Shown here: positions 38,998 through 41,543 of the stretch, piece after piece | How positions within the stretch are numbered: position 1 is the stretch's first letter | Layout of the letters: each line of letters opens with the position of its first letter | Origin: Asaia bogorensis | GTDB lineage: Bacteria; Pseudomonadota; Alphaproteobacteria; CACIAM-22H2 | Assembly (NCBI GenBank): GCA_945901855.1 | Contig: CAMDLT010000003.1 | Span: forward strand, 1 to 64,000 | DNA length: 64,000 nt | Direction of reading: 5' to 3' | The notes under the pieces: model-generated | Seen by the model: the letters and a program-made list of their open reading frames with translations, nothing else | What the model was told of the DNA's origin: nothing | Databases searched by the model: none | Program-made: the position numbers and the translations under genes

Positions 38998-39498
38998 TCA
39001 GTGCGGCAGTTTGTCGGGGTCGCCGCGCACGGATTCGCCCCACTCGGTTTCGAGCTGCGCCTTGCGCCGCTCCAGCATGCGGATACGCGCCTGCTCGCGG
39101 TTTTCGTACAGCACGTTGACCACCATCGGGAACAGCCAAGACAGCGCGTAGGCGAACGCCGCCGCCACATAGACGGAGATCCACGCGTACGGATTGGCAA
39201 GAATTTCGCGCCCGCCCGTACGCCCCGCATTCGCCAGCCCGTCGAGCACGAAAGGCAGCATAGCGCCGGCGCTGAGCGTGCCGACGGCGACGGTGTCGAA
39301 TTTCCGGCGCGACGGATCGCTCAAATACGCAGCGATGGCCGGCAGAAACCCGGCGATCACGAACACGCAAAGCCACGGCACGCTGAAGCCCAGCCACGCG
39401 ACGATCGAAAGCACGCCCACGCCGCCGGTCGCCAGCACCATCGGGCTGCGCTCGCCGAGTTTCTTGGGCTTGGGGCGGGGTTTGGGCGGGCGCGCCAT
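38998..39498 (-). CDS. Small integral membrane protein, partner of the pseudokinase gene
   Basis: This 166-residue protein has a lysine- and proline-rich N-terminus (MARPPKPRPKPKKLG), about three or four hydrophobic segments (VLATGGVGVLSIVAWLGF, WLCVFVIAGFLPAIAAYL, VAVGTLSAGAMLPFVL, and ISVYVAAAFAYALSWLFPMV) and a charged C-terminal coil (ENREQARIRMLERRKAQLE). It follows the pseudokinase gene, whose stop codon shares one base with this start (TGATG). I do not recognise the family. The tight coupling suggests the two proteins act together in the membrane. Confidence 0.7.
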   Translation of the reverse strand: MARPPKPRPKPKKLGERSPMVLATGGVGVLSIVAWLGFSVPWLCVFVIAGFLPAIAAYLSDPSRRKFDTVAVGTLSAGAMLPFVLDGLANAGRTGGREILANPYAWISVYVAAAFAYALSWLFPMVVNVLYENREQARIRMLERRKAQLETEWGESVRGDPDKLPH

Positions 39499-41543
39499 CA
39501 AAACACCCGCAGCAGCAGCGAGCCGATGCCCACCACGCCCGACAGGCTTGCGGCCGTGAGCGCTGCCGCTTCCTTGCCCGCATGGATCGCAAGCGTCGTG
39601 CGGATCTTGCCGCCGTTGCGCAGTTCGCCGATTTCGAGTTCGGCGCTCGCATAGCTTTCCTTGGCGTTCTGGAACGCATGCATGTCCTGGTCGCGCATCT
39701 TTTCGTTGTCGACCAATTCCAGCAGCTTGCCGAGATTGCCTTCTTCGGACACTTTGTTGAGCTGTTCGAGCTGCAACGTCCGCAGCGGAAGGTTGTGCAG
39801 CGTATCGACGAACTGGCGCACCAGCCCCGCGCACCACGCCGTCAGACGCGGGACCGACGGGGGCCCGAATTTTTCCTGCAGATCGGCCATCAGTTCGACG
39901 ATCGCAAGTCCGCCATGCGCATCGACCTGCTCGGGATTCATCAGCGCCTTGATCTGCGCGGTGTTGGCGCCCGCATGCGAAGACAGGAAAGCGGCCAGAT
40001 GCCGATCGACGGGCTTGCGGTCGGGCCCGGCCGAGGCTTCGAGCGCTTCGAGGACGTGGGCGGGCTCCGAGACCCACATGCCCGACGCGACATCCGAAAA
40101 ACACGGCTGGTTGGGATTGAGCTCGTAAAGGCACCGCTCGATGCCATTGCCCGGCGACGGATCGGCGATCCAGCGACCGATGCGGTCCAGAATGCCGTTG
40201 GCGGGCAATTTTTTTCCGCCCGCCAGTTTATGGAAATGCGTCCACGTCCCCAGCACGCGCGAACGGATCAGATCGGCAAAGATCGGGCCGTTGCCGGGTT
40301 TGCGCATGGCGGCCGCGAGCGCCGGGCCCAGCCCGTCGGCGGTCACGCTGTGGCCGCGAAAGCGCACCGGCGCCATGGGGTCGAGCACGATGCAGGCGCG
40401 CGCCACGATGGTCGCGTCGTTGAAGGTGGCGTTGGGATCGCCGGTCGGCTCGTTGACCACCGACATCACGCGGTCGTGCAGCTTCTGGTCGCCAAGCGAG
40501 GAGCGCAGCCACATCGGGATGGCGCCGTTGCGCAGTTCCTTGGCGGCCTGTTCGAAATTTTTGCCTATCGCGTGGGCGAGGGTGCGCGTGTTTTTGTGCT
40601 CGCGCTTGGCGAATTTGTAGCCCTGGGACGCGCGCGACATCTGCGGGGCGGTCGAGGGGATCTGCTGGCGCTTGCCCTCGATCCAGCCGCGCAGATGCTC
40701 GATCGTCCAGCGATCGGGCTCCCAGTCGTTGGTCAGTCCGCGCATCACTTCCATCAAGGTCGCGGGGAGTTTGTTGAGGTCGGCCAAGGCGTCGAACGAA
40801 TTGGTGTCGATGCGCCGGTAGATCGCCTCGTCCGGATCGAGGCCGGCCCCCGGAAGCGAGCCTTGCGCAAATGCGAGCAGGGTCATGCCGAAGGCGAACA
40901 TGTCGTCGGCGCGCGTGCCGTTGCCGCGCGCTTCGGGATCGGCCATCGCGCCTGCCAGCGGCTCGAACGCGGCCGGCTGGTCGTACCCTGCGGGCACTTG
41001 CAGGCATGGCCCCATCACGACGCGCGTGCGCGCCTCGTCGAGCCAAAACAGATTCTGGGGACGCAACGCGCGGTGCGTTACGCTGCGCAAAAACATCTCG
41101 CCAAGGCCGACTGCCAGCGGATTGAGAATATGGCTGACGATCTTCGCCGCAGGCCAGTTGTCGCGCGGCGCTTTGCCCGACCATAGCGGCCCGCCTTCGG
41201 GAAAATCGTAGATCAGCGCCGGGCGCTTGCCTTTGGTACCGGGCCAATTGACCAGATCGAAATCGTAAAGCCGCAGCAAGCCCGGCCGGTCGACCGTCTT
41301 GAGCGCCTTGGCCATTTCCAGGCGCGGCAGCAAATCGTTGCTGCAAATGAGGGCGACGCGCGGCACGCCGTCGTCGCGCGTGTCGATCGCAGAAAACGCG
41401 CGCACCGATGCGGTCGACATGTCGGGGACCGGCATGTTCGGATAAATGTGGAACCGATTGCCAAGCTCCACGCTCGGCCCATGTACGGCCGTCGGCGGCG
41501 CTTCCTTGGCAGGCAGATCGACGATATTTGCCGGTTCGGCCAT
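39498..41543 (-). CDS. Membrane-anchored protein kinase-like protein, predicted pseudokinase
   Basis: This 681-residue protein has a kinase-like N-terminal region (about 30-290), a long helical middle and a hydrophobic C-terminal segment (about 650-681) that could anchor it. Kinase landmarks are degraded: the catalytic loop reads HRALRPQN (157-164) with Ala in place of the catalytic Asp; the DFG position reads VVMGP (175-179); a VAIK-type lysine is not seen. The DDMFAFGMTLL stretch (213-223) looks like kinase subdomain IX. It should bind or scaffold rather than phosphorylate. ATG 41543 is preferred; 41582 would add 13 residues. It shares one base with a small membrane gene and lies beside purA. 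Confidence 0.75.
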   Translation of the reverse strand: MAEPANIVDLPAKEAPPTAVHGPSVELGNRFHIYPNMPVPDMSTASVRAFSAIDTRDDGVPRVALICSNDLLPRLEMAKALKTVDRPGLLRLYDFDLVNWPGTKGKRPALIYDFPEGGPLWSGKAPRDNWPAAKIVSHILNPLAVGLGEMFLRSVTHRALRPQNLFWLDEARTRVVMGPCLQVPAGYDQPAAFEPLAGAMADPEARGNGTRADDMFAFGMTLLAFAQGSLPGAGLDPDEAIYRRIDTNSFDALADLNKLPATLMEVMRGLTNDWEPDRWTIEHLRGWIEGKRQQIPSTAPQMSRASQGYKFAKREHKNTRTLAHAIGKNFEQAAKELRNGAIPMWLRSSLGDQKLHDRVMSVVNEPTGDPNATFNDATIVARACIVLDPMAPVRFRGHSVTADGLGPALAAAMRKPGNGPIFADLIRSRVLGTWTHFHKLAGGKKLPANGILDRIGRWIADPSPGNGIERCLYELNPNQPCFSDVASGMWVSEPAHVLEALEASAGPDRKPVDRHLAAFLSSHAGANTAQIKALMNPEQVDAHGGLAIVELMADLQEKFGPPSVPRLTAWCAGLVRQFVDTLHNLPLRTLQLEQLNKVSEEGNLGKLLELVDNEKMRDQDMHAFQNAKESYASAELEIGELRNGGKIRTTLAIHAGKEAAALTAASLSGVVGIGSLLLRVF

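Follow-up and report, generated by a model that had tools for sequence, protein, structure and literature searches.

A tail-anchored pseudokinase paired with a small membrane protein in Alphaproteobacteria

The locus studied here raises the question of what role can be played by a kinase-like membrane protein that seems unable to transfer phosphate and whose gene runs directly into that of a small membrane protein. Both genes lie on the minus strand of the window, as we call the whole stretch of 64,000 nucleotides analysed. P0001 (39498..41543) encodes a tail-anchored protein of 681 amino acids (aa) and P0002 (38998..39498) a membrane protein of 166 aa. A single base is common to the TGA stop codon of the former and the ATG of the latter, an overlap already noticed in a preliminary description of this DNA. 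Translation of P0001 probably begins at the ATG at 41543, since the N-terminal sequence MAEPAN is kept in most orthologues of the same genus. The neighbouring genes are hisZ, purA, rpoH and rluD. The pair had been placed between rpoH and purA; both neighbours were found again and the arrangement was refined, as the two genes are the end of a same-strand run hisZ-purA-kinase-partner and rpoH is convergent. The preliminary description had read P0001 as a membrane pseudokinase that no longer phosphorylates and that acts as a signalling scaffold or ligand sensor. The first part of this reading is supported by our analyses of sequences and predicted structures, and the second describes a role that the protein may have.

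The sequence of P0001 alone gave weak matches both to Pfam Pkinase (E 0.065) and to kinases of the PDB (E about 1e-3). A profile built from 50 family sequences matched MK2 and other PDB kinases with an E-value of 5e-12 over residues 61-287, and Pfam Pkinase was detected at E <= 0.01 in 39 of the 50 members. The kinase assignment is thus weak for the single sequence and solid for its family. The AlphaFold2 model of P0001 (mean pLDDT 88.2, pTM 0.82) retrieved WNK, PknB and BRAF with Foldseek at probability 1.00. Taking model, Foldseek and profile together, the protein-kinase-fold domain covers residues 25-295 approximately (40659..41471, minus strand). No intact active site was gained from the profile search.

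A pseudokinase is defined by a kinase fold with loss of at least one of the three catalytic residues, namely the beta3 Lys, the HRD Asp and the DFG Asp. P0001 lacks all three, having I66, A159 and P179 in their place, and is therefore a pseudokinase and not an active Hanks-type Ser/Thr kinase. The catalytic columns were assigned in two independent alignments, one to an active bacterial kinase and one to MK2, and the residue counts given for the pseudokinase refer to 124 distinct family proteins. In both alignments the HRD Asp is matched by A159 and the DFG Asp by P179; an intact site in another register was sought and not found. In the degenerate catalytic loop HRALRPQN (residues 157-164; 41052..41075, minus strand), whose missing catalytic Asp had been pointed out before, the column of Ala159 is occupied by Ala in 82 proteins, Ser in 18, Gly in 12, Asn in 6 and a few other residues, and by Asp in none of the 124. 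The absence of a VAIK-type lysine, also reported previously, was borne out: the segment reads VALIC, I66 falls on the beta3 Lys in the MK2 alignment, and the lysine is present in one relative and absent in 123. It must be noted that relatives are annotated as 'serine/threonine protein kinase', which these motifs contradict.

The DFG equivalent is MGPCL (residues 177-181; 41001..41015, minus strand). The earlier statement that a DFG-like Asp is lacking (VVMGP) is correct for P0001, with Pro179, and does not extend to the family, since 100 of 124 relatives have Asp (55) or Glu (45) at this position; the remainder have Pro (20) or Gln (4). Nearly all the Pro179 cases belong to the genus and family of P0001, paralogues included, which makes the missing metal-binding acid a feature of that lineage. 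The Asn-bearing loop that had been described as kept is indeed invariant, Asn164 being present in 124/124 together with Glu194 (the APE Glu), Asp214 and Arg278. R74 is found in 123/124, His157 in 118/124, with the region up to Glu194 complete, and the conserved catalytic-loop Arg161 in 113/124. The invariance of E194, D214 and R278 is as expected if the fold, and not catalysis, is under selection. On the other hand, most family members retain Asp/Glu179, Asn164 and Arg161, a set easier to reconcile with a nucleotide or metal site than with a mere scaffold, and a divergent site of this kind may survive in members beyond the lineage of P0001.

These residues, together with R74, could also belong to an atypical enzyme, one whose kinase-like site would bind a nucleotide and carry out a different transfer reaction in most family members; in the lineage of P0001, with Pro179, this activity would have been lost or altered. 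Pseudokinases with SelO-type AMPylation or SidJ-type glutamylation activity have been described (PMC12599244) and count in favour of this explanation. We nevertheless consider it unlikely, given that the family as a whole has lost the HRD Asp and the beta3 Lys, and that the lineage of P0001 is also devoid of the acidic residue 179, yet remains under purifying selection.

A different kind of activity would be that of a kinase with displaced catalytic machinery, as in WNK. WNK1 and WNK3 were among the best Foldseek matches of P0001, and in 82 of the 124 proteins a Cys follows the position of the lost beta3 Lys. WNK kinases keep the HRD and DFG Asp, however, while the former is gone in all 124 family members. 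In addition, no conserved Lys that could replace the lost one was seen in beta2, and a WNK-type relocated lysine was accordingly discarded. An active kinase of this type is therefore very improbable.

Beyond the kinase fold, AlphaFold2 predicted a helical C-terminal domain (residues 300-611; 39711..40646, minus strand) and a single long helix, the stalk, at residues 614-680 (39504..39704, minus strand), which includes a transmembrane (TM) segment at 660-678. The hydrophobic C-terminus noted before can be sharpened to a tail anchor because the TM segment stops a few residues before the end of the protein, and a C-terminal TM segment ending in this way is present in 118 of 124 relatives. The most conserved stretch of P0001 is found not in the kinase fold but in the helical domain, at residues 465-530 (39954..40151, minus strand), with the pattern G-x-ERCLYELNP..PC.S ... 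DRH. Its mean entropy is the lowest of nine stretches (2.01 vs 2.11 for the kinase C-lobe), and E469, Y473, C481 and D513 are present in 124/124 and H515 in 119/124. The first helical module of the family (module 1) resembles the post-kinase module of helicase-fused proteins with DLHK-like traits from other bacteria (hhalign probability 90%, E 1.7e-6 to L174), with a weaker likeness to L172 and L171. As a separate observation, L172, L173 and L174 are helicase-fused kinase-like proteins that carry this module behind the kinase domain, its presence having been tested in L172 and L174, and in L172 it is covered by no Pfam model.

The low entropy of residues 465-530 and their several invariant residues of functional type could mean that the helical domain is the functional centre, as a ligand, metal or enzyme site, with the pseudokinase as a regulatory or folding platform. 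We hold this to be rather unlikely, although clearly less so than the enzymatic alternatives above, and it is compatible with the explanation preferred below, the two not being exclusive. The likeness of module 1 to a kinase-associated module elsewhere implies that the conservation in this domain could be structural, and searches of Pfam and NCBIfam gave no enzyme-family match for the helical C-terminal domain.

The partner P0002 has three hydrophobic segments and was modelled by AlphaFold2 as all-helical (pLDDT 84.6, pTM 0.57). In its long helix (residues 103-153; 39040..39192, minus strand), a TM segment continues into a helix that ends in LxxEWG, W153 being conserved in 120/121. No convincing match of P0002 was found in Pfam, NCBIfam or PDB structures. 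Orphan partner-like genes, with no pseudokinase beside them, were detected as three extra copies in each of two genomes of one genus, G036 and G157 (L176 6378-6899, L177 8059-8496 and L178 7279-7875, together with L181, L182 and L183). These copies suggest some independent role of the partner-type membrane protein in that lineage. One of them adjoins a gene for a large putative membrane sensor kinase, which is followed further on by a response-regulator gene.

The survey of gene neighbourhoods across Alphaproteobacteria showed the partner gene as the next one downstream of the pseudokinase gene, in the same orientation, for 121 of 124 family members, and the purA neighbourhood was kept in 61 of the 78 loci examined. 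Carriers of the pseudokinase (kinase search) and of the partner (partner profile) were the identical 67 of 192 alphaproteobacterial genomes, a count that leaves out one marginal partner match (G026, E 6e-4). The pairing is thus kept over a large part of the class, and neither of the two outcomes that the preliminary description had named as refuting it, an intact active site in another register or an unconserved pair, was observed. One locus (L023) had no recognised partner within 1.3 kb of the pseudokinase. Split pairs that keep both members occur in G217, with the two genes on two contigs; in G583, where the pseudokinase is followed by an integrase-like gene and the partner is on another contig; and in G584, where the partner is still beside rpoH and the pseudokinase beside purA on another contig. 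A gene resembling a tyrosine integrase stands immediately behind the pseudokinase on L078 (9995-11638), in a genome that has the partner on a different contig. L189 (6025-7558) and L093 (7905-9995) show a rearrangement break between a pseudokinase by purA and a partner by rpoH, both retained.

The two proteins also diverge together. Distance matrices of kinase and partner gave a Spearman correlation of 0.77, and a partial correlation of 0.61 after removing PurA. Four pseudokinase copies per genome are found in the genus of P0001 as co-evolving pairs. Three paralogues of the same genome (L035, L036 and L037, on contigs C58, C25 and C26) are each followed by a divergent partner, and the other members of the genus that were searched gave four matches each. 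Paralogues keep matching partners, with nearest neighbours agreeing in 8 of the 9 tested. The paralogue neighbourhoods examined gave no functional hint.

Given the loss of catalytic residues, it might be thought that P0001 is a kinase gene in decay, retained through its linkage to core genes; the place next to purA, which is conserved in most loci of the Rhodospirillales, could preserve such a gene passively. This explanation can practically be dismissed. The dN/dS ratio between close orthologues of P0001 ranged from 0.05 to 0.14, kinase domain included, which indicates that the gene is maintained (one further, more diverged comparison gave 0.31). Moreover, residues remain invariant despite about 25% identity, and the gene persists at other loci and in several copies.

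Full-length relatives of P0001 were found only in Alphaproteobacteria, including Azospirillum, Magnetospirillum, Magnetovibrio, Nisaea, Rhodospira, Roseospira, Caenispirillum and Oleispirillum. A wider sample of the phylum, outside the class, yielded generic kinase matches, a few of them reaching into module 1. Five contigs titled Stygiobacter, Candidatus Marinimicrobia or Candidatus Paceibacterota (L074, L079, L081, L109 and L112) carry the pseudokinase gene, mostly with hisZ-purA synteny, and their record titles look misassigned. Matches to PADLOC PD-T4-6, mad6 and MkoA fit shared kinase-domain similarity, as do those to NCBIfam LanL and MAD6; no defence neighbourhood was seen, and a defence-system kinase was rejected.

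In attention to the above, P0001 is probably a tail-anchored pseudokinase that does not phosphorylate and forms a membrane complex with its partner, as a ligand-sensing scaffold or switch. Both gene products would join in one inner-membrane complex. The larger subunit would expose a pseudokinase and a helical domain to the cytoplasm, on a long helical stalk ending in the C-terminal tail anchor, and the smaller would be an all-helical membrane protein with one helix extending out of the membrane and ending in LxxEWG. The pseudokinase would transfer no phosphate and most likely be a binding module for a protein, a nucleotide or another small ligand. Its bound or unbound state might be passed through the stalk and the tail anchor to the partner; alternatively, a client might be held at the membrane. 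Against this explanation count the orphan partner-like genes, the retention of Asp/Glu179, Asn164 and Arg161 in most members, and the fact that conservation peaks in the helical module, where the operative part of the protein may lie instead of in the kinase domain.

With less confidence, we suggest that the pair could be a class-wide alphaproteobacterial membrane device, in which the pseudokinase reads a cytoplasmic ligand and controls an obligate small membrane protein. Sensing might take place in the repurposed kinase pocket, in the invariant E-Y-C-D-H centre of the helical domain, or in both. Roughly one third of the sampled genomes carry the pair, and in some genera it has been duplicated into four co-evolving pairs. 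Few bacterial pseudokinases have been characterised so far. The family is widespread, strictly paired and present in genera with cultured, genetically workable strains (Azospirillum, Magnetospirillum and Rhodospira); therefore, the role of a Gram-negative inner-membrane pseudokinase becomes directly testable.

The bacterial pseudokinase families reviewed to date are ActPs1-3, GLW, CP1, DYD, DLHK, EssB/YukC, SidJ and SelO (PMC12599244). In agreement with the preliminary description, which knew of no system of this form, our search of open-access papers, the original classification paper not among them, found no description of the pseudokinase/partner pair. EssB/YukC is similar in that it is a pseudokinase of the membrane, has degraded motifs and acts in the manner of a scaffold, and YukC did not bind ATP in vitro (PMC9600267). 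EssB, however, has an extracellular part and lies in a Firmicutes secretion locus, whereas P0001 has a bare tail anchor, another partner and no adjoining secretion genes; no EssB/YukC family match was found among 50 members (Pfam, NCBIfam), nor type VIIb genes in the neighbourhood. The GLW family has GLW instead of HRD, with Leu/Trp at the beta3 Lys, while the P0001 family has H(R/G)(A/S/G). The ActPs families are mainly actinobacterial, with a shortened activation loop or DFG. MviN/ActPs3, with a short activation loop and HRD replaced throughout, differs from the P0001 family in the conserved His157 and the complete region to Glu194. Unlike P0001, neither GLW nor ActPs2/ActPs3 (MviN) has been described with a two-gene membrane partner.

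The closest kinase domain outside the class (72 bits) is that of L171, an 879-aa active kinase from another class of Pseudomonadota. It shares with P0001 the kinase, a weakly module-1-like helical stretch and a C-terminal TM segment, but has intact HRD and DFG motifs and no P0002 homologue. The L171 gene (2988-5627), whose product looks like an active Ser/Thr kinase and contains helical repeats ahead of that TM segment, is directly followed by the gene of a membrane protein that resembles the sulfatase-modifying-factor type (read by eye). DLHK is likewise proteobacterial and has in common with P0001 the catalytic loop H-R-x-[LI]-R-P, including the catalytic-loop Arg, and the post-kinase helical module of P0001 recurs in proteins that show DLHK-like traits (helicase fusion, HRDLRP, GFG). 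Nevertheless, DLHK keeps the HRD Asp, has no TM segment and is fused to helicase/DNA2, in contrast to the HRA/S/G motif, tail anchor and membrane partner of the P0001 family; both its HRD Asp and its lack of a TM segment exclude P0001 from this group. We rate P0001 as an apparently undescribed membrane pseudokinase whose pairing with a second protein is unusually strict.
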